NCBI GenBank assembly: GCA_029248525.1
Contig: JAQWJE010000049.1
Location: 675,836 to 739,835 of the forward strand
Direction: 5' to 3'
Source: Candidatus Binatia bacterium
GTDB taxonomy: Bacteria > Desulfobacterota > Binatia > UBA12015
DNA: 64,000 bases
The position numbers and the translations under genes were made by a program. Of the stretch, positions 33,497 to 51,596 are shown one piece after another. Positions within the stretch are counted from its first letter, which is position 1. The number at the start of each line of letters is the position of its first letter. The notes under the pieces were generated by a model that saw only the letters and a program-made list of their open reading frames with translations, had not been told where the DNA came from and ran no database searches.

Positions 33497-36400
33497 TCAA
33501 GGTTGGGGTGTGACGCGAATGGTTACTGGCGGGGAAGTGAGCCCGGTTCCGATATCCGTTGCCCACAGAAGGACTTCGCCAGGCCTCTGCGCCTGCATTT
33601 GTCCGTAGCTCCCGCGCTGCTCCTTGACCTCGATAATCGAGGGGTCGGTGCTGATCACGTGAGCATAGCGAGTCAGGTAGCGGCGCTTCCCGTTCTCGTA
33701 GGTCCCAATGACGCGGAACCGGCCCCTCTCTCCGCTCTGAAGCTCGCTGTGGCGCGCGGTCAGCTCGAGCGATTGGAGGGCTTCACGCACTCGAATCGTG
33801 GCGGTTGCTTCAACTCCGGTGGGTGTCGTGGCGGTAATGGTTGCGGTGCCTGTCGTACCGCCGGTCAGAATGCGCCCGGGTTCCGCGTCGGTCGGAGCAA
33901 GGCGGACGATGCTTTCATCGCTGGATTTCAGCTCCGCGTATCGGGTCATCGTGATTTCGCGCCCATCGCTCAGCGTGCCGGTGAGCCGCAATCGCCTTCC
34001 CGTGCCCCCGCGGATGGTGACTTTCCTGGGCGTGAATTTCATCGTTTCAACGCCTCCGGAAACGATGAGTTCCACAATGGCGAAGAAGCCGTTCTCGTAT
34101 GACGCGACCAGATACGTCGTGCCGGATCCGAGAAAGTTGACCTTCCCGGGTTCCTGCGGGTCGAACTCGGCAACCTCCTCGTTGGTCAGCACCCAGACAG
34201 CTTCACGTGTGACATCGACAAGTTGGTCGTTCGCGTATTCCGCGTAGGCGCGGAAGCGGTAGCTCCGGTAGGCGGAGAACCGTGTGCGATTGTTGCCAAA
34301 GCGAAGTCCGGTGCTCCCGCCCAGAACGACGACCTCGAGCGAGGCGGTAAGACCGCTGCAATTGGCGCGAATAGTTGTTGTCCGTCCCGCTTGGTGGCCG
34401 CTGACGATTCCTTTCTCCGGGGGCTCGTTGGTTACACTCGCAATGGCTGCAGCGTCGGTAGACCACTCGCATTTATCACTGATGTTCTGGGTCTCGGCAT
34501 CTTCGAAGGTCGCACGGACCTTGAACGTCGATTGGGTTCCGAACCCGACGAGTCCTCGATCCGGGGCTTCCATCGCGATACTGACGATGCTCCCCTGAAT
34601 TTTCAGATTCCGACGGCCTGAGGTGACCCATCCGTTCACCGGATCACGCGCCTCCAGGGTCGTCCAGCCAGCGCTGAGCCCCTCGACTTCACCCGGATCA
34701 AGATCAGGGTTTTCCGCGGATCCCACTCGTGCGATCGTCGGGTCCTCAACCCGCCACTCCAAAGCTGGCCGCAGATCGTCAGTTTCGCTTCCATCCGAGA
34801 GTCTCGCGCGAACCTTTGCCTTGCGCTGATTGCCGATATCGACGCGCATGGGAGTGATTTCAAGGCCTTCGACCGTCCCGCCGACCGTGATGCGCGCGGG
34901 ACTGCCCGACGCAGTCAGTCCTGTCGCCGGGTGGAAGGCTTGCACGGTACTTTCGCCGACAGCCTGTGCCTGCACCCATCCATCTCCATCGATCGAGATT
35001 GCTGATTCGTTGGTCGAGGACCAGACCACCGTGCTGGTGATATTGCTGCGACTTCCGTCCGCGCGCTTGCCGTAGGCGCGCAATGGATAGCGAAGGCCGA
35101 CGCCGAGGTGCAGGGAGTCTGGTTCGATTTCGATCGATTCAATCGCGCCGCGAACTTCGAGATTGTTGCTCTGCAGCGAGGCTATTCCGGTGCTGTTCTC
35201 TGTCGCGACCAGGGTTGTCGTTCCCGCGCTTACGCCTGTGACTGCGCCCGGGCTCCCGACTGCGTTGCTGACGGTAGCAATCGAAGAGTTGTCGGTGGCC
35301 CAGCTGACAACGCGGCGCAGATCGCTGGTAACGCCGCCGGTGCTCAAAAGGCCGTGGACGCGCGCATTGCGAGATTCGCCCGTGGTTATCGCGAGGGGCT
35401 GCACCAGAACTTCCCGCAGCACTCCTTCCACGCGGATTGTCGTCGATCCGAGACTGTCGCTGGCACGCAGCCCGCGTTCGGGATCAAACGCGTCAACGGT
35501 CACGGTTCCCGCTCGAAGACCGGTGATCTGACCAGCATCATTGCCACCTTCGACGATACTCACGACACCTGCGCCTTGAATCCCGAATACCACATCGTCG
35601 GTGATCTGAGAGCGGGTTCCGTCGGTACGATAAGCATAGACACGGAGGGGAAGATTCATATCTCTGCCGAGAACGTACTGCAGTGCCTCAAAATCGATAT
35701 GTGTGACGCCCGCGCGAACCACGGTGTCCCCATCGGTGCTCGAAAGCGCTGTCTCGGGATCGTAGGCGGTGATCACACAGGTCCCGATTTGATGGGCGGA
35801 CACCCATCCCGCGTTTGGCCCCGAACTGATGACGGATGCGATCTGGGGATCCGAACTGCTCCAGCGGACGCGATCGCTGATGTCCGTATCACTGCCGGAC
35901 GCATAGACGCCGCGAGCGGTGAAGAGTTCTTCCTGACCGATCTCCAGAGATTTGGTGGTCGGTTTTGTGCGGAGCCGGATGATGGGTTGGGGGGGCTCCG
36001 TGGGGGGACGAACCTCGAGGTTGTTCAAGCCTGGCGACGATATCCCCGTGACAGGATCGATGGCGACGATGGTGGTTGTTCCCGCGCTGTGTCCGGTAAT
36101 TTCGCCGGGACTGCCGCCCGAATTCTTGATCGTGGCAATCGATGTATTCATGGACTGCCAGGTCACGACGCGACGCAAATCAGTCGTAAGCTCCCCGGTC
36201 GACAGTTGGCCGTAGGCATGCGCGTTACGGGAATCTCCGATGCGCACCGACAGGGGGTCGACCAGAATTCTCTGCAGAGTCCCCGAGACGCGGATCGTGG
36301 TCTTCCCCAGACTCGAACTGGCATAGAGGCCGCGCTCCGGGTCGAATGCATCTACCTGCACGCTTCCCTGGCGCAGGGGGCGAATACCGCCGGGGTTTTC

Positions 36401-37258
36401 ATTCCCCGAGGTAACCACCGCGATCCCGGCCCTGCTGAGCAGGTAATCGACATCCTCGGTAATCTGCGTTCGGGTTCCGTCATCACGGTATGCATAGACG
36501 CGCAGCGGTAACTCCATATTGAGGCCGAGCAGGTATTCGGACTCCTCGAAGTCGATATGCGTCACGCGCGCACGGACGCGGGTGAATCCGTCGGTGTTGC
36601 GGAAGCCACTTTCGGGATCGTAAGCGGAAATATTGGTAGTACCGACCCGGTTTGCGGTGACCCTTGCATCTTGCTCGTCGTTGATGGTCACCGACGCGAT
36701 CGTCGGGTCCGAGCTGCTCCACTGTACGCGACTGGTGATATCGACGTCGTAGCCGCTCTGGTACATGAGTCGTGCCGTAAAAGTCTCGGCAAGACCGACC
36801 TCGAGAGATTTTGTGGTGGGCTTGGTGCGGAGTCCGGTGATGGGACCGGCATCAACCCGAAGGTCGGCACTGCCCCTGTTGCTGTCATCGAAGTAGTAGA
36901 ACTTCGCCTGAATTTTGACCTCGCCGGGGCCTCGGGCGATGACGGTGCCGGCACTCCCCGGTTCGTTGCTCATGCGTGCAACAGAAGATCTCGAAGTGGT
37001 CCACGTGGCGAACGAAGTGATTTCGACAGAGGTATTGTCCGAATATTCTGCGAAGGCCCGATAGGCGTATTCCTGATCCGGTTCGAGGACAATATTATTC
37101 GGCTCGACGCGGATGCCGACAAGGTAGGCCGCGGAAGAGGGTGTCGAGATCGAGCCGACCCACAAGCAAACCAATGCGACGAACCAGAGGCACTCAGTCG
37201 CGCGGAGATTTCGAATCGAGGACATGGGAGATATGAGAACGCCGACTCGCCGGCTCAA
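33497..37258 (-). CDS. Large secreted Big2 (bacterial Ig-like) repeat protein
   Basis: 1253 residues. The TTG start at 37258 has gagggaatc upstream and gives an N-terminus MSRRVGVLISPMSS before the hydrophobic signal (CLWFVALVCLWVGS); ATG 37225 is the alternative without a ribosome site. The rest is about 12-13 Big2-type domains of roughly 90 residues, each with a strand like TFTARLMYQSG, a WSSSDPTIASV core and a GTT.I.AYDP end. Residues about 140-417 and 427-704 are a near-exact-length tandem duplication of three domains. No anchor or sorting signal is visible. Likely an extracellular or surface adhesive/structural protein. Confidence 0.82.
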   Translation of the reverse strand: MSRRVGVLISPMSSIRNLRATECLWFVALVCLWVGSISTPSSAAYLVGIRVEPNNIVLEPDQEYAYRAFAEYSDNTSVEITSFATWTTSRSSVARMSNEPGSAGTVIARGPGEVKIQAKFYYFDDSNRGSADLRVDAGPITGLRTKPTTKSLEVGLAETFTARLMYQSGYDVDITSRVQWSSSDPTIASVTINDEQDARVTANRVGTTNISAYDPESGFRNTDGFTRVRARVTHIDFEESEYLLGLNMELPLRVYAYRDDGTRTQITEDVDYLLSRAGIAVVTSGNENPGGIRPLRQGSVQVDAFDPERGLYASSSLGKTTIRVSGTLQRILVDPLSVRIGDSRNAHAYGQLSTGELTTDLRRVVTWQSMNTSIATIKNSGGSPGEITGHSAGTTTIVAIDPVTGISSPGLNNLEVRPPTEPPQPIIRLRTKPTTKSLEIGQEELFTARGVYASGSDTDISDRVRWSSSDPQIASVISSGPNAGWVSAHQIGTCVITAYDPETALSSTDGDTVVRAGVTHIDFEALQYVLGRDMNLPLRVYAYRTDGTRSQITDDVVFGIQGAGVVSIVEGGNDAGQITGLRAGTVTVDAFDPERGLRASDSLGSTTIRVEGVLREVLVQPLAITTGESRNARVHGLLSTGGVTSDLRRVVSWATDNSSIATVSNAVGSPGAVTGVSAGTTTLVATENSTGIASLQSNNLEVRGAIESIEIEPDSLHLGVGLRYPLRAYGKRADGSRSNITSTVVWSSTNESAISIDGDGWVQAQAVGESTVQAFHPATGLTASGSPARITVGGTVEGLEITPMRVDIGNQRKAKVRARLSDGSETDDLRPALEWRVEDPTIARVGSAENPDLDPGEVEGLSAGWTTLEARDPVNGWVTSGRRNLKIQGSIVSIAMEAPDRGLVGFGTQSTFKVRATFEDAETQNISDKCEWSTDAAAIASVTNEPPEKGIVSGHQAGRTTTIRANCSGLTASLEVVVLGGSTGLRFGNNRTRFSAYRSYRFRAYAEYANDQLVDVTREAVWVLTNEEVAEFDPQEPGKVNFLGSGTTYLVASYENGFFAIVELIVSGGVETMKFTPRKVTIRGGTGRRLRLTGTLSDGREITMTRYAELKSSDESIVRLAPTDAEPGRILTGGTTGTATITATTPTGVEATATIRVREALQSLELTARHSELQSGERGRFRVIGTYENGKRRYLTRYAHVISTDPSIIEVKEQRGSYGQMQAQRPGEVLLWATDIGTGLTSPPVTIRVTPQP
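35149..36841 (-). repeat. Tandem 287-codon duplication inside the Big2 gene
   Basis: Two consecutive units of about 861 bp encode protein blocks that align end to end. Unit 1 starts TGLRTKPTTKSLEVG and unit 2 IRLRTKPTTKSLEIG; both continue with VTHIDFE, LPLRVYAYR.DGTR and DAFDPERGL. A third, degenerate copy of part of the unit follows (IESIEIEPDSLHLGVGLRYP). The divergence between units suggests an old duplication. Confidence 0.75.
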
Positions 37259-41846: not shown

Positions 41847-42476
41847 ATGAGGATCCTGGTATTTGGTGCACACCCTGACGACATGGAAGTCGGCATGGGC
41901 GGCACGATCGCCAAGCACGCCAACTTTGGCGATTCCGTAGCCATGGTTGTCGGCACGGTGCCCTCGATGAACGACGTCCGGCGTGAGGAAGCGCGGGCCG
42001 GGGCCGATGTGCTTGGCGGGGAACTGCGTTTCCTGGATATCGAGTCCGAGGAGTTCGAGTACAATCGGGCTCTTGTCGGTCAGATTGATGCCATTTTGAA
42101 AGATGTTCGTCCCGACATGATCTACACCCAATGGGATCAGGACTCCCATCAGGACCACAACAATCTGTCCCGGGGTGTCATATCGGCCTGCCGGAAGAAT
42201 CAATGCTCGCTCTATATGTACGAGCAGACGATCCCGGGCGGCATCGTGCCGGGAGGCTTCAATCCCCAGTCCTATGTCGATATCTCCGATACGATCGATC
42301 AGAAGTCCGACAGCGTATTGGCGCATGCGTCGCAGGTGAAAGTGCATGGGGATCTCTGGGTGGAAGGGGTGAAGGGTCGCTGTGCTTATCGCGGCTATCA
42401 GATTCACGTGGCCTACGCCGAGGCCTTCCAGGTGGTCAAGGAAATCAACGGCTGCTTTTCGGATCGTGCGCGCTGA
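41847..42476 (+). CDS. PIG-L/LmbE-family deacetylase
   Basis: Zinc-dependent N-acetyl-sugar deacetylase family, cytoplasmic, 209 residues. The zinc/catalytic motif GAHPDDMEVGMGG holds His9, Asp11 and Asp12, and SHQDHNN supplies the third zinc ligand. Related enzymes (BshB, MshB, LpxC-unrelated GlcNAc deacetylases) act on GlcNAc conjugates; the substrate here is unknown. A strong ribosome site (gaggaggttcag) fixes the start. It is monocistronic-looking, with about 140 bp upstream. Confidence 0.88.
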   Translation: MRILVFGAHPDDMEVGMGGTIAKHANFGDSVAMVVGTVPSMNDVRREEARAGADVLGGELRFLDIESEEFEYNRALVGQIDAILKDVRPDMIYTQWDQDSHQDHNNLSRGVISACRKNQCSLYMYEQTIPGGIVPGGFNPQSYVDISDTIDQKSDSVLAHASQVKVHGDLWVEGVKGRCAYRGYQIHVAYAEAFQVVKEINGCFSDRAR

Positions 42477-42538: not shown

Positions 42539-44842
42539 GTGGGGCGTTGTCAGGATAAAAACCCGACCGGCAGGATATCTTTCGGGAGCCTTGTTTTCTG
42601 GTTGGCCCTCATGGTGCTGGCTTCCGGATGCGGCTTTCCCCTGATCTTCGGCTCGGGTCGATCGGCTGAACCCGTTGGTGTTGCTCGAACTCATGCCTTG
42701 CTTCTGAACGGAGGCGGGAGCAAATCCATCAACTACGCCTCTCATCTCCAACATCTCAAAGGGGTGTTGGCGGTGCTGGAGACCTCGGGAGTGCCTCCAG
42801 GGGACATCACAATTTTTTCCAGCGATGGCGAAGATCCAAGCCGGGATCTGGCGACGCGAGGTCCGAGTTTGGTGGTCGGCCCAACCCACGGCCTCTTTCG
42901 CCGCAATCCGATTCGCTACCGGAATACGAAAATTCCCGGGTATGTCCTTCGCCCGGCAACCAAAGCCGGACTGGCATCCTATTTCAGAGAAGATGCCAGT
43001 CGCTTCCCTCCGGGCTCCACGCTTTTCCTCTACGTCACCGACCACGGAACCGACGGGGACGATGGTCCACGTTCCAACCGGATCTCGTTATGGGGCGAGA
43101 GCCTTTCCGTCACCGACCTCGAGTCGATGCTGGCGGAGCTTCCGCCAGATATCCGGGTGGTTATGGTGATGTCGCAATGTTTTTCGGGCGGCTTTGCCTT
43201 TATCGATATCTCTCGTGGCCCGGGCTCGGAAACTTGCGGCTACTTTTCGACGACGGCCGACCGTCTTGCATACGGATGCTACCCCGAGCATCGCGGCGAT
43301 GCGGGTGTCGGCCATTCGATGCGCTTTCTCGAAGGTTTGCGCGCGGGATTGCGATTCCCCCAAACTCACGATCTGGTTCTCGAAACCGACCGTACCCCGG
43401 ATGTTCCCTTGCGGACCTCGGATGTGCGCTACGGAACCCTGCTGCAAGAAGCGGCGATGGCGCGAGGCCAGGACGAAATCGTTTTGGTCGATGAGCTTCT
43501 GGCGCAGGCATGGCAAAATCCGGTGGCTTACGAGCCCTTGATTCGTGAGTTGGACCGAGTCGGCGTATCCTTCGGGGTGGCGAGTCCCCGATCGCTGGCG
43601 GAGCTTCGCGAGCGTATGGAGGTTCTGCCCGTTGTCAGTGGGCGCTTGAGCAAGCATTCCGAGGCATGGGACGAGGCACGCGAGGACGCGGAACGAGCCC
43701 TCCTGCAACGGTTCGGTCTGGAGCACCCGGACATCTACGCCCGTCTGGAATCCGGAAAGTCTCTCAAGCGAGCCGGCCGCCGAGCGCTCCGGGCGGATTT
43801 CAATGCCGTATTCCCCGGCTGGTTAAAAACAGCAGGGTCCAATCGACGTATGAGCTCGCTGGCGTCGCGGTCGCGAATTGCGCGAAATATTGCCAGCCGG
43901 ATGGCCGTCCGGGAGGCCGTGTTACTGCGGTTCGAAGCCCTTCTCGTTCGGGTGGCCGCGCAAGAGTACCTGGCTCGCTACGGCACGAAAGCCGAGAAGG
44001 CCGAGTTTGCCTCTTTGCTTGCCTGTGAAGATTTCGCCCTGCCGATTCCTGTTGGAGACCTGCGAGCGATACCCGAGCGCAAGGCTTACCCCTCCTACGA
44101 GGGGGATATCGAGAGGGCACGCAGAGTCCTCCCAGCGTGGATGGGGATTCAATTCCGACCGGCCGAGAAAGCCACAAAAGAGCGGTTCGATTTGCCGGCC
44201 GGGACCGTGCAGGTTCGGCACGTCTATCCCGAATCGCCCGCGGGTGCGGCGGGCCTGGTGGTCGGAGATCTGATCCTCGGTCCGCCCGGGAAGCCTTTTG
44301 AGGAGCCGCGCCAGATTCGCGAGTGGACGATGTTTCAGATGGCTGGCGTGGAGCGGCGATTGTCCGTCCTTCGCGACGGCGAACCAATCGAAATTCTTCT
44401 CGTACCGGGCGAGCATCCCGGCGCCTTTCCCTCCCTCCCGCAACCGCCTGTCGTCGGGGGGGCGGCTCCGTCGTTTTCGCTGGAGCCCTACCGGGGCGAT
44501 TTGCCGGAAGTCTGGTCCGGCGCGGGCAAGCACCTCCTGTTTTTCTGGGCCACCTGGTGTGCCCCCTGCAAGGCGGCGTTGCCGGAGTTGATGGCCTGGT
44601 CGGAGCGCACCGGGATCCCCATTGTGGCGATTACGGATGAGTCTGCCGAACGTCTCGATTCCTTTTTTACCGAGGTTGACGGAGGCTACCCCGCGATTAT
44701 CGCCAGAGACCCCCTGCGCCAGGCAACGCTCGCTTTCGGCATCAGTGGCACGCCGACATTCGTTTTGCTCGATGATGCAGGGCGTGTCGAGGCTTTCGCG
44801 ACTGGATACGCGGCCAATCGGCCGTGGCCGCTGCCGGAGTAA
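42539..44842 (+). CDS. Clan-CD peptidase-like / PDZ / thioredoxin-domain lipoprotein
   Basis: 767 residues from GTG 42539. Lipobox VLASGC (lipid Cys31). Residues 50-270 look like a caspase/legumain (clan CD) fold: strand THALLLNGGGSKS, catalytic-type His169 in YVTDHGTDGDDG and Cys214 in VMSQCFSGGFAF. Residues 300-530 are helical and charged with no named domain. Residues about 535-625 form a PDZ domain (VRHVYPESPAGAAGLVVGD). Residues 640-767 are a TlpA-like thioredoxin with WCAPC (Cys674/677) and cis-Pro739 (GTPT). I know of no named family with this order; the likely location is the periplasmic face. Function unknown; each half keeps its catalytic residues. Confidence 0.8.
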   Translation: MGRCQDKNPTGRISFGSLVFWLALMVLASGCGFPLIFGSGRSAEPVGVARTHALLLNGGGSKSINYASHLQHLKGVLAVLETSGVPPGDITIFSSDGEDPSRDLATRGPSLVVGPTHGLFRRNPIRYRNTKIPGYVLRPATKAGLASYFREDASRFPPGSTLFLYVTDHGTDGDDGPRSNRISLWGESLSVTDLESMLAELPPDIRVVMVMSQCFSGGFAFIDISRGPGSETCGYFSTTADRLAYGCYPEHRGDAGVGHSMRFLEGLRAGLRFPQTHDLVLETDRTPDVPLRTSDVRYGTLLQEAAMARGQDEIVLVDELLAQAWQNPVAYEPLIRELDRVGVSFGVASPRSLAELRERMEVLPVVSGRLSKHSEAWDEAREDAERALLQRFGLEHPDIYARLESGKSLKRAGRRALRADFNAVFPGWLKTAGSNRRMSSLASRSRIARNIASRMAVREAVLLRFEALLVRVAAQEYLARYGTKAEKAEFASLLACEDFALPIPVGDLRAIPERKAYPSYEGDIERARRVLPAWMGIQFRPAEKATKERFDLPAGTVQVRHVYPESPAGAAGLVVGDLILGPPGKPFEEPRQIREWTMFQMAGVERRLSVLRDGEPIEILLVPGEHPGAFPSLPQPPVVGGAAPSFSLEPYRGDLPEVWSGAGKHLLFFWATWCAPCKAALPELMAWSERTGIPIVAITDESAERLDSFFTEVDGGYPAIIARDPLRQATLAFGISGTPTFVLLDDAGRVEAFATGYAANRPWPLPE

Positions 44843-44850
44843 TCGATCTG

Positions 44851-45486
44851 TCAGCTGGTGCTCCGGCCGCGACGGGCAACCGCCCATAGTCCCTCACCGG
44901 AGCGCGAAGCCCTCGCGGTCCAGTCTCCGGGCAGCGCGGCCACGAAATCTTCGGGGCTGAGGTGGATGGGGGTGTTCTCGGCGCGCGAGTTGACCCAGAC
45001 CACCGTGCCCTCCGGCTTGAGGACGCGCGCGACCTCGGCGGGAAAGAGCAACATATTGAGCAGGACGATCGAGTCGACCGAATCCGGCGGGAAGGGCAGG
45101 CAGCAAGCATCAGCGCGTACCCGCGCAGCACTCGGGGTGTTCAGGCGTCGCAGCATCTCGAAGGAGAGGTCGACCGCGACGACCCGCGTGAAGGATTCTT
45201 CCAGAATCGGGGTCGCGGGCCCGGTGCCGCAGCCCAGTTCCAGACAGTTTCCGGGATGGATATCGCCGCGCTCCAGCGCGTCGCGGAGCGGCAAGAGGCG
45301 ATCATCTGCGTGTTTCAGGTGCCACTCGGGGGCCAGTTCATCGAATAGTTTTTCGACTTTCCGACGCCTTTCGGGCGTCCAGGTGGGGGCATCAAAGGCG
45401 ACGTCACGGGTGATCTGACGCATCGGGTGGTTTTGCGGGCGAGGCGTGGCAGCCGTGACCTCGCTGGAGGGCAGATATTCGACCAT
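44851..45486 (-). CDS. SAM-dependent methyltransferase (type 11-like)
   Basis: Class I methyltransferase, up to 211 residues, cytoplasmic. Motif I is CLELGCGTGPATPIL; acidic motif II VVAVDLSFEML; later VRADACCLPFPPDSVDSIVL and ARVLKPEGTVVWV fit the methyltransf_11 pattern. The N-terminal helix FDAPTWTPERRRKVEKL is typical of small-molecule methyltransferases. The start is unsettled (45486 or 45423); neither has a clear ribosome site. It is convergent with the peptidase-PDZ-thioredoxin gene, 8 bp apart. Confidence 0.83.
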   Translation of the reverse strand: MVEYLPSSEVTAATPRPQNHPMRQITRDVAFDAPTWTPERRRKVEKLFDELAPEWHLKHADDRLLPLRDALERGDIHPGNCLELGCGTGPATPILEESFTRVVAVDLSFEMLRRLNTPSAARVRADACCLPFPPDSVDSIVLLNMLLFPAEVARVLKPEGTVVWVNSRAENTPIHLSPEDFVAALPGDWTARASRSGEGLWAVARRGRSTS

Positions 45487-45597
45487 ATTTGTTTGTCGGT
45501 GTTGGAATCTTGACGGTCAAGGGCAAGGGGCTCCCTTTACGCGTGAGCGGCCGTTGGATACGGATGCACTATGCTCTTGGACCTTGGAGGAGAAAAA

Positions 45598-46986
45598 ATG
45601 CGTCTTTTACCCGGATTCGTGATGGTTATTGTTCTGATGATGACTTCTGCCGCTGGTGCCGCGACGTTCAACGTCGACTCCCAGGTAGATTCTCCCGATG
45701 CGACTCTCGGCGATGGCATTTGCGCCTCCAAGGCCGGCGGTTGCACCTTGCGTGCGGCTGTCGAAGAAGCGAATGCTTCTTCGAGGTCCTCCACCATCAA
45801 CCTGCCGGAGGGCACCTATACGCTGACGAGTGCCGATGAAGGAGCGAATTTCGGTCAGAGCGGGGTGCTCCTGCTGGGCGGTGTGACTACCGTTGCCGGA
45901 GCCGGTTTGCGGACGACTGTGGTGAACGGCGATGGAAAGCATCGACTTTTCGAGGTCGGCAACAAGGCAACGGTGACGATCTCGGGTCTCACTCTGCGGG
46001 AAGCTCAAGTGCAGGGAGGCGATGGTGCGGCGCTTCTCAATCGTGGCAACTTGACCGTCTCCAACGTGCTCTTCCTGCAGAATCGAGCGGTGGGTGATCC
46101 GCTTGTTCCCAAGAGCGGGCGTGGGGCGGCTCTGTTCAACACCAATGGTGGCACCGCATCGCTCAACTCGGTCGTCGCGCTGAAAAACTCCTCGGACGGC
46201 AAGGGCGGAGCCTTCTTCAATGACGAGGCCAGCACTTTGAAGATCATGAATGGCGAAATTTTGGGCAACCAATCCCTCGCGGATTCCGGTGGCGGAATCT
46301 CCAACAGCGGCACCCTCGAGGTTACCATCTCGACGATTCGAGGGAACCAGGCAATGCAGGCTGCCGGTGGGCTGGATAATATCGAGAGCAGCGCAAAGTT
46401 GCTTGACGTGGAAATTACCGAAAATACGGCGGGGTCGGAAGGCGGCGGGCTGCGCAGCTCCGGAGAGCTGTCCGGGCATAATCTGACAGTGTCGGAGAAC
46501 AAGGCATCGAGCGCCGGCGGGATTTTGGCCCGCGCTCCGGGCAAGGTCTCCCTGAACAACGTGACGGTCGGCGACAATCAGGGTGGCGGGCTGGCTGCGG
46601 AAAAAGGAGCGACGCTGGCGATCGCGAACACCTTGGTCGCGCGCAACGAGACCGAGAGCAAGCCCACGGATTGTTCGGGGCAAATCCAGTCGGGTGGTTT
46701 CAATCTGATCGAGAATCCCGCAGGCTGCCAGATCCGCGGCAATACGACAGGAAACCTGAGTGCGGTCTCTGCGGAATTGGGCAAATTGGCTCTGAACGAC
46801 GGCCAGAATCGCACTCAGGCTTTGGGTGCGGGCAGCGCAGCAATCGATGCCGGTAGCCCCGCGAAGCCGGGTGGCCCCGAGGGTTCTTGCCTGATCGCTG
46901 ACCAAAGAGGTGTGCGCCGGCCGCAGGCCGTGCGAGGCGATGTGCCCCGCTGTGATATCGGCGCCTTTGAGAATAAGGGCTCCTGA
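45598..46986 (+). CDS. CSLREA/choice-of-anchor-type beta-helix protein
   Basis: Secreted right-handed beta-helix protein, 462 residues from ATG 45598 (ggaggagaaaaa upstream). Signal peptide ending SAAGAA. The CSLREA-type N-terminal element reads DGICASKAGGCTLRAAVEE. Repeats with parallel-beta-helix spacing follow (LLNRGNLTVSNVLFLQN, GGISNSGTLEVTIS and others). The C-terminus has DQRGVRRPQAV and CDIGAFEN, the usual closing element of these proteins. Likely a surface or extracellular protein of unknown ligand. Confidence 0.85.
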   Translation: MRLLPGFVMVIVLMMTSAAGAATFNVDSQVDSPDATLGDGICASKAGGCTLRAAVEEANASSRSSTINLPEGTYTLTSADEGANFGQSGVLLLGGVTTVAGAGLRTTVVNGDGKHRLFEVGNKATVTISGLTLREAQVQGGDGAALLNRGNLTVSNVLFLQNRAVGDPLVPKSGRGAALFNTNGGTASLNSVVALKNSSDGKGGAFFNDEASTLKIMNGEILGNQSLADSGGGISNSGTLEVTISTIRGNQAMQAAGGLDNIESSAKLLDVEITENTAGSEGGGLRSSGELSGHNLTVSENKASSAGGILARAPGKVSLNNVTVGDNQGGGLAAEKGATLAIANTLVARNETESKPTDCSGQIQSGGFNLIENPAGCQIRGNTTGNLSAVSAELGKLALNDGQNRTQALGAGSAAIDAGSPAKPGGPEGSCLIADQRGVRRPQAVRGDVPRCDIGAFENKGS

Positions 46987-49742: not shown

Positions 49743-51596
49743 TTGAGGATGTATTTCTTACGGATAGTTCTGGCCTTTGTGGCATTAGTGGTGGGTGGCG
49801 TGAGGCCGGCGGAGGCGACGACGTGGATCGTTCCCGAGCCTGAGGAGCTTTTGATCGAGGCCGATGCCATCGTTCTGGCGCGAGTCGACTCGATTCGGAG
49901 TGTCGCTTCTTTCGATGGATCTTCGATCGATACGGAAATCGAGTTGCTGGTCATCGAAGGTTACAAGGGTGCGGTTGCGGGCGAGCGAATTCTGGTTCGC
50001 GAAGTGGGCGGACAGGTTGGCGAAGACCAGCAGTGGGTCTTCGGTGCTGCCGAATATCGCGTCGACGAGATCGTGCTGACCCATTTGGCGCAGACCGAAG
50101 ACGGCCAGGTGCGAACCCTTCATATGGGTTTGGGAAAATCGAGTGCCACCATCGCTGATGATGGCGAGATCAGCTTTTCACGTTCACGCTCGGGGGGGCG
50201 TCGCGAGAAAGTCCGGATTCGCAAATTCCGAGGTGAAATGGATCGTGCGGGCGTTCAGAAGGGCCATCGACGACTGGGGGGTCGTTCGATCGCTGCGATG
50301 AGCACGGATGCACCGGCCGCGTTCGGGCAGGTGCAGGAGAATCGCCAGTTCAACCTTCTTGCCGACCCCGGCTCCCGCTGGTTTGGCGGTCCGGTTCAGG
50401 TGTGGGGTGCGCTCACGGGCGATGCCCGGCTGGGCAAGGCAGTCTCCAATAAAATGGTGCAGGCCGCGGCTAGTGCCTGGGATAACCGCGACGGATCTTC
50501 TCTGGATCTGGTATACGCCGGCGAGCGCAAGGGAGACGGCTGGAGCTGCAACGACGGTTTCATCAACGTTTCGTTCAATGATCCGAAAAACCAGATCGCC
50601 AACCCGCGGAACTGCGGTGGGGGTACGCTGGCGATCGGCGGTTTTTGCATGAAGGCAAAGCCCTATCAGGACTCGCGCTATCATGAGGTAGTTTCGGGTT
50701 CGATTGTCCTCGCCGACGGCTGGGGTAATTGCTCCTTTTGGAACGAAAGCAACGTGGCCGAAGTTCTGACCCATGAACTCGGGCATACCATCGGGTTCGG
50801 CCACTCCTGGGAGAGCAGCCTTGGTGCAGAAGGCGACTCATTCATTCGTGATGCCACAATGTACTGGGCCGCTCATTTTGATGGCCGCGGGGCGTCTCTC
50901 GAGGATTACGACCTCGGGGCGCTGGCCTGGCTCTATGACGATTCGGGATCGCAAGACCCGCAAGATCCCGAAGACCCGGAAGACCCGGAAGACCCGGAAG
51001 ATCCGGAAGATCCGGAAGATCCCGAAGAAGACCCCGATACCGATGGCGATGGATGGGACGATGCGAACGATAATTGCCCCACGGTTGCGAACCCCGAGCA
51101 GGTCGATACCGATGATGACGGCAAGGGTGACCTCTGTGATGTCTGTCCGGAACAAAGCGGCATGAATGAGGATGGCACCTGCGGTGATTTCACCGGATCC
51201 GTCCGGATCTCGCGTCGCAAGAATGGCGTCACGACATTGACTCTTCGCGCGCAGCTTCCTCTGCTGGCGGATGCTCGCAAGTTAGGTGCGGTTTCTGTCC
51301 AGATCGAGGGAAATTCAGAGGTCTATGAATTGGCTTTGGATCCTGGTGCGATGGCCACGAACAGCCGGGGCACAAGGGCGCATTATCGTCGCTCGAAGAC
51401 CCGTGTGTCGGTTCGCCAATGGCGCAAGTCCTCAAGTATTTTGAGTGTGCGTCTGAATTCGCGGGATCTGCAGTACCTGATGGATGATGAGTTGACCGTC
51501 GGGCTTCAGATTGGCGGCGAAACCTTGGTGGCCAATATGAATTGTCGCACTCGTTATCCGGAAGGCCGCACCGTGACACGTTGCGACGCCGATTGA
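49743..51596 (+). CDS. Secreted matrixin-like zinc metalloprotease with thrombospondin-type-3 repeats
   Basis: 617 residues. Start TTG 49743 (aggaggg-type site, agggagggaaaa upstream) or ATG 49749. Signal peptide to about Ala25. Zinc motif THELGHTIGFGH: His344, Glu345, His348, His354 (HExxHxxGxxH). A Cys-bearing region (WSCNDG, NCGGG, NCSFW) precedes it. Residues about 402-427 are a Asp-Pro-Glu repeat, followed by Ca-binding TSP3-type DTDGDGWDDANDNCP and a beta-rich C-terminal domain. Likely a secreted protease; the N-terminal 160 residues are probably a propeptide (inference). Confidence 0.86.
   Translation: MRMYFLRIVLAFVALVVGGVRPAEATTWIVPEPEELLIEADAIVLARVDSIRSVASFDGSSIDTEIELLVIEGYKGAVAGERILVREVGGQVGEDQQWVFGAAEYRVDEIVLTHLAQTEDGQVRTLHMGLGKSSATIADDGEISFSRSRSGGRREKVRIRKFRGEMDRAGVQKGHRRLGGRSIAAMSTDAPAAFGQVQENRQFNLLADPGSRWFGGPVQVWGALTGDARLGKAVSNKMVQAAASAWDNRDGSSLDLVYAGERKGDGWSCNDGFINVSFNDPKNQIANPRNCGGGTLAIGGFCMKAKPYQDSRYHEVVSGSIVLADGWGNCSFWNESNVAEVLTHELGHTIGFGHSWESSLGAEGDSFIRDATMYWAAHFDGRGASLEDYDLGALAWLYDDSGSQDPQDPEDPEDPEDPEDPEDPEDPEEDPDTDGDGWDDANDNCPTVANPEQVDTDDDGKGDLCDVCPEQSGMNEDGTCGDFTGSVRISRRKNGVTTLTLRAQLPLLADARKLGAVSVQIEGNSEVYELALDPGAMATNSRGTRAHYRRSKTRVSVRQWRKSSSILSVRLNSRDLQYLMDDELTVGLQIGGETLVANMNCRTRYPEGRTVTRCDAD
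50954..51031 (+). repeat. In-frame 9-bp tandem repeat (Asp-Pro-Glu linker)
   Basis: About eight copies of a 9-bp unit gacccggaa, with variants gatcccgaa and gatccggaa, lie inside the metalloprotease gene and encode repeated Asp-Pro-Glu. Copy changes would keep the reading frame, so the linker length could vary between strains. It joins the catalytic domain to the TSP3 calcium-binding region. Confidence 0.85.

Follow-up and report, generated by a model that had tools for sequence, protein, structure and literature searches.

The window, by which we mean the whole stretch of 64,000 nucleotides of Candidatus Binatia bacterium DNA that was analysed, contains a gene for a predicted envelope protein that joins a legumain-like cysteine peptidase, a helical region, a PDZ domain and a thioredoxin domain in a single chain. 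The ORF lies at 42539-44842 on the + strand, as does every part of it described below, and this order of parts follows from the reading frame, Pfam, the relatives and a structural model. Its anatomy and its kinship with the C13 peptidases are well supported by sequence comparison and by predicted structures. We believe the most likely reading of the whole is reductive proteolysis or quality control of disulfide-containing envelope proteins; we hold this reading tentatively, and the coupling of the two activities is something we infer. Reduction and proteolysis outside the cytoplasm are usually described as separate systems. The literature searched holds no description of the peptidase-PDZ-thioredoxin architecture, which is short of proof of absence since subscription papers and preprints are thinly covered there. 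C13 is already listed as occurring in bacteria in the available text of PMC4357240, so a bacterial C13 peptidase as such is not new.

The gene and its relatives

The original prediction described a 767-residue ORF with TDHG, SQCFSGG and WCAPC motifs, and all of these are present in the sequence: the 767-aa frame opens with GTG, TDHG occupies residues 167-170, SQCFSGG surrounds Cys214 and WCAPC lies at 673-677. Frame 1 of the opposite strand has three stops within the gene. Overlapping minus-strand ORFs exist, the longest among those listed being 321 aa (43922-44887), and we found no support for any of them. Twenty-five relatives can be aligned end to end with the window protein at 29-49% identity, and His169, Cys214, Cys674, Cys677 and Pro739 are invariant across the 26 sequences. 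Because the relatives are full length and these residues do not vary, the arrangement is more than chance. The dN/dS ratio is 0.06-0.37 per domain (five close pairs).

The gene is single copy in its own genome, where seven other matches cover PDZ or thioredoxin stretches only. Its nearest named record, the MAG Deltaproteobacteria bacterium UBA12015, is 99% identical; the two copies differ by 6 bases and 4 residues, none of the latter at catalytic or conserved cysteine positions. In the family tree the window copy has a long terminal branch (0.87 against a median of 0.31) and has evolved faster than its same-family relatives. A simple upstream scan, which means little in this lineage, found no promoter-like site, and PADLOC gave no defence-system match.

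Conservation is given below as rows with a letter at the column, among 56 aligned family members. Left out of these rows are L131 and L134 (which duplicate L037 and L035), L028 and L100 (from the same species as another row, or nearly so), L103 (contig shared with L033), L096-L099 (weak family-f2 matches, C13-like only), L142, L154 and L155 (in which the profiles find neither PDZ nor thioredoxin), the second piece of L147, and members of the class not extracted in full, such as G031, which is split over contigs. Partial rows were retained for L107, L147, L151 and L152, and for L101, which breaks off ahead of the thioredoxin. The putative signal peptide (42539-42631), identified by eye, ends in L-A-S-G-C31 with Ala at -3, plausibly the lipobox of a lipoprotein. 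It is not universal in the family: the column holds Cys in 36 of 56 rows, the others having a different residue or an N-terminus of undefined position.

A legumain-like peptidase

Residues 48-298 (42680-43432) form the putative peptidase domain, assigned to C13 of clan CD by profiles, Foldseek and structure comparison. Pfam Peptidase_C13 scores 18.2 bits on the window protein, under the cut-off of 22.8. The same family, PF01650, is above cut-off in eight of the 10 relatives scanned, below it in one and without a match at E 0.1 in the remaining one, and 25 of the 26 sequences match it at E up to 1. Searching with a sequence profile of residues 48-300 gives E 7.8e-6 for legumain and E 0.43 for metacaspase-4. 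The predicted structures agree. The full-length model built from the 26 sequences has a pLDDT of 84.9 and a pTM of 0.82, and the peptidase domain modelled alone reaches 82.1 and 0.84. Foldseek places 4n6o_A best for the full model (E 4.3e-8). The top 23 rows are all legumains, asparaginyl endopeptidases or ligases, and structures of thioredoxins and of HtrA PDZ domains come next; for the domain alone 4n6o_A is matched at E 1.5e-10. In VIA the full model aligns to legumain with Z 21.3 over 218 of 263 residues at 3.0 A, and the domain alone with Z 20.2 over 209 residues at 3.1 A. Other matches of the full model include asparaginyl ligases (Z 21.2), GPI transamidase (19.3), the best metacaspase (18.6) and caspase (17.1), where rows whose Z differs by no more than 1 count as ties.

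The clan-CD fold that had been predicted from the sequence is thus what the models give: residues 48-300 are legumain-like both alone and within the full model. Closer kinship with C14, the caspases and metacaspases, did not hold, since these have lower Z and a weaker profile match and the window protein has the Asn discussed below. The fold held in common with legumain (MEROPS C13) extends across nearly the whole peptidase domain, and one difference lies in the fusion to PDZ and thioredoxin. The catalytic subunit of GPI transamidase, also C13, is alike in fold, whereas the window protein has neither its membrane complex partners nor GPI and belongs to a different domain fusion.

The predicted active site is supported by alignment: the histidine of the DHG motif and Cys214 align with legumain catalytic residues. 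In the profile alignment Asn65 (42731-42733) corresponds to legumain Asn42, His169 of TDHG (43043-43045) to His148 and Cys214 of SQC (43178-43180) to Cys189; they are conserved in 53/53, 54/55 and 55/55 rows. According to the available text of PMC9604545, Cys189, His148 and Asn42 are the legumain catalytic triad, and the Asn is replaced by a backbone carbonyl oxygen in caspases and metacaspases. The S1 pocket is another matter. Its legumain residues are Arg44, His45, Ser216 and Asp231 in the part of PMC4357240 available, and of this asparaginyl-specific set only His45 is kept, as His69 (54/54). The Arg44 column is variable (Ala67 in the window protein, Arg in 11/53), the Ser216 column has Ala in 52/55, and Asp231 falls inside an unaligned insert. 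Legumain Ser215 and Glu190 are not kept in the window family either, and Glu190, described as an activity brake, is replaced by Phe, Tyr or His. Most legumain S1 residues are not kept, therefore the specificity should differ. Judged from these alignments, cleavage is expected and asparagine specificity is not.

Besides the CxxC the mature protein has four conserved cysteines: Cys214, Cys233 (43235-43237, 55/55), Cys247 (43277-43279, 56/56) and Cys496 (44024-44026, 55/55). In 50 of the 56 rows there is no cysteine from residue 48 on except these four and the CxxC. Asn65, His169 and all four cysteines occur together in 51/56 rows, the exceptions being four incomplete rows and L153, where His169 is lost. 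Cys247 lies opposite the Cys of legumain SYACYY, which leaves Cys233 and Cys496 as the ones without a seen legumain counterpart; that these two form a disulfide is our guess.

The helical region and the PDZ domain

Between the peptidase and the PDZ domain the full model has a helical region (residues about 299-520; 43433-44098) with long helices at 353-395 and 434-481. By sequence, nothing in the PDB matches it at an E below 0.6. In VIA with the full model, prolegumain rows align only to about chain residue 303, and no prolegumain C-terminal (LSAM) domain is aligned. VIA also aligns the full model to legumain up to model residue 502. We considered and rejected the idea that the helical region is an insertion in the peptidase fold, since the domain alone (48-300) already reaches legumain residue 271-274; the segment 495-502 could add only about 8 legumain residues.

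The PDZ domain of the original prediction is present at residues 535-618 (44141-44392) by Pfam and profile matches, and resembles that of DegP and DegQ. Pfam PDZ_2 scores 26.9 bits against a cut-off of 27. The HtrA/DegP periplasmic proteases share with the window protein a common plan, an envelope peptidase with a PDZ domain. They have a trypsin-like serine domain, whereas the window protein has a clan-CD cysteine peptidase and an added thioredoxin; no trypsin-like domain precedes its PDZ, and HtrA models match residues 510-626 only. NCBIfam NF041199, named Trx7/PDZ domain-containing (seleno)protein, also sets a PDZ beside a thioredoxin. The likeness consists of the name and a weak PDZ match, whereas the window protein is far under the cut-off (12.6 of 300 bits, with the match limited to the PDZ) and the model name has no peptidase in it.

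The thioredoxin domain

Residues 639-758 (44453-44812) are a ResA/TlpA-like thioredoxin domain by Pfam, NCBIfam and profile matches, and the Pfam thioredoxin-like families score above cut-off. Among the 49 rows having this domain, the active site C674-A-P-C677 (44558-44569) and Pro739 at the cis-Pro position (44753-44755) are each kept in 48. The claim of a TlpA-like thioredoxin with WCAPC and a cis-Pro is therefore borne out, with ResA/DsbE-type proteins the nearest. The ResA/TlpA/CcmG type is nearest in both sequence and fold and has the CxxC and cis-Pro in common with the window protein, which falls below the NCBIfam cut-offs for ResA (45.2 of 170 bits) and DsbE (39.1 of 123.15 bits).

A role in cytochrome c biogenesis had also been suggested, and this we consider disfavoured. 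In the available text of PMC5909903, a Glu three residues after the CxxC is present in characterised dedicated CcmG-type proteins and in StoA, and HP0377, with Thr but no such Glu, is reported to act more widely, as both reductase and isomerase. Position 680, three after the second Cys of the CxxC, has no Glu in any of the 49 rows, and Thr precedes the cis-Pro in 36 of them. The Glu of the cytochrome-maturation thioredoxins is Glu80 in ResA, which lies opposite Ala680 of the window protein; the same alignment rules out Glu701 as its equivalent. Together the missing Glu and the Thr before the cis-Pro point to a thiol reductase or isomerase of general function, not one specialised for cytochromes.

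Distribution and natural variants

The peptidase-domain profile has matches in 43 of 148 genomes of the window's class, 39 of them strong, with the window's own genome and its species counted. Four family-f2 matches there (E about 1e-8) are other C13-like proteins. All 12 same-family genomes examined carry the gene, some in pieces. A wider draw of the phylum (395 genomes, with six candidates scored in each) found it in at least 4, every one belonging to the window's class. Outside it, the gene is carried by three named MAGs (L035, L036, L037), of which one has two copies and another three. The class of L036 has profile matches in 16 of 57 genomes; 14 of these combine peptidase, PDZ and thioredoxin, one being split into two frames and one having no helical match at threshold, and the other two (G560, G570) have a C13-like part only. 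Because the complete set of four modules is found in two classes, the linkage is old.

The modules have been lost in different ways. Five proteins (G041, G113, G114, G115, G116) stop right after the PDZ and have no thioredoxin domain, and no thioredoxin of this type occurs near them in loci of 7-20 kb. They keep the catalytic residues and all four cysteines. In a quick tree without bootstrap they form one set (SH-aLRT 97) with one change of state, which is most simply read as the thioredoxin having been lost once. L140 has kept the thioredoxin domain without the CxxC, along with the four cysteines. L153 (G580) has lost Asp168 and His169 and kept Cys214, Cys233, Cys247, Cys496 and the CxxC, which makes it a candidate pseudo-protease whose redox part is live. 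Thioredoxin, CxxC and catalytic His are lost in different members, therefore the modules are separable. A further sequence, L165 (G016:C29, about 36223-36612), is 51% identical to the family thioredoxin domain and has one stop. No match to the peptidase, helical or PDZ part lies within 8 kb of it, and it is perhaps a remnant.

Redox background and gene neighbourhood

The window genome has a 615-aa DsbD-type protein, a VKOR match and DsbA matches. By its predicted gene content it is equipped for disulfide formation (VKOR, DsbA) and for reduction (DsbD-type). Among the member genomes searched, DsbD_TM is found in 30/30 and VKOR in 27/30, and in each of the three VKOR-less genomes (G024, G044, G107) the thioredoxin domain is present. 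DsbD_TM scores are low (66-73 bits) in G113 and G114, and low likewise in G029, G036 and G049. Loss of the thioredoxin cannot be put down to a missing oxidation or reduction system, since all five thioredoxin-less genomes have VKOR and DsbD_TM.

Across the loci compared (22 of 25), no neighbouring gene is shared as a conserved partner beyond the window's family. A PIG-L deacetylase gene, 41847-42476 (+), ends 62 bases upstream of the focal gene. A bacillithiol link through it was rejected: its best NCBIfam match, BshB1, is below cut-off (100.3 of 182.5 bits), BshC is found in 0/10 genomes, and PIG-L lies upstream in only 2 of the 8 same-family genomes searched (G005, G009). Downstream, the product of 45571-46986 (+) is a beta-helix protein in which a choice-of-anchor Q domain scores 55.2 bits (cut-off 25), and the protein ends four residues past the anchor-domain match; a relative lies within 10 kb downstream of the focal gene in 7/8 same-family genomes searched. 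Elsewhere in the window, a nine-base tandem repeat of 8.4 copies (50953-51028) encodes an acidic proline-rich linker of DPE repeats in the ORF 49743-51596, and 33497-37258 (-) encodes a 1253-residue secreted-looking protein with many similar repeats, which resemble bacterial Ig-like repeats.

What the protein may do

Under reductive proteolysis, the protein would be exported by its lipoprotein signal and act as an envelope-anchored legumain-type cysteine peptidase. The PDZ would bind an exposed or C-terminal segment of the client, as in HtrA proteases, the thioredoxin domain would open the client's disulfides and be recharged by the genome's DsbD-type protein, and the opened chain would be cut at the Asn65-His169-Cys214 site. 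To judge from the family's sequences, the peptidase function probably cannot always require the thioredoxin, given the five members without it and L140; in L153 the thioredoxin part may act without cutting. The stricter version, a single-chain reducing protease that captures through its PDZ, reduces with its own thioredoxin and makes a legumain-type cut with a specificity unlike legumain's for Asn, is possible, and we remain doubtful of it.

In a different use of the same parts, the thioredoxin would act on its own chain. It would either maintain Cys214 in the reduced state or break a regulatory disulfide formed within the set Cys214, Cys233, Cys247 and Cys496, and protease activity would then track the redox state of the envelope. 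The four conserved cysteines of the peptidase and helical parts, in a family where 50/56 rows have no others outside the CxxC from residue 48 on, fit this, and the member genomes with VKOR and DsbD_TM have a source of oxidation and one of reductant side by side. However, the thioredoxin-less five keep the four cysteines with no such thioredoxin in their loci, and L140 keeps them without a CxxC. Because those five genomes have VKOR, they argue against a strict need of the thioredoxin for a reduced Cys214. The original prediction that the thioredoxin protects the catalytic Cys is thus disfavoured in its obligatory in-cis form, the peptidase being intact in all five; a reductant in trans could still serve such members, and a looser protective role may exist. 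The guard or switch as a whole is in our view less likely than not, a little behind reductive proteolysis.

Two further explanations have less in their favour. The C13 site might trim the tail of a surface protein and join the protein elsewhere, with thioredoxin and PDZ preparing the substrate; GPI transamidase and the asparaginyl ligases are among the structural matches, and the beta-helix choice-of-anchor Q neighbour recurs in the family. We think such a transpeptidase or sorting enzyme unlikely, since the window's beta-helix protein has no sorting tail, the association was not found outside the window's family, and fold similarity does not separate protease from ligase. Finally, the protein could be a chaperone or reductase that uses its peptidase domain chiefly for binding, as a pseudo-enzyme. 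L153 would suit this, being without the catalytic His yet with CxxC and four cysteines kept, but the near-invariance of His169 and Asn65 in the family makes it very improbable.

If the reductive proteolysis reading is true, it would allow a direct test of whether one enzyme both opens and destroys disulfide-locked bacterial envelope proteins. The family also adds to C13 a bacterial branch whose S1 site is altered, and its natural variants without thioredoxin, without CxxC or without the catalytic His allow the role of each module to be tested.
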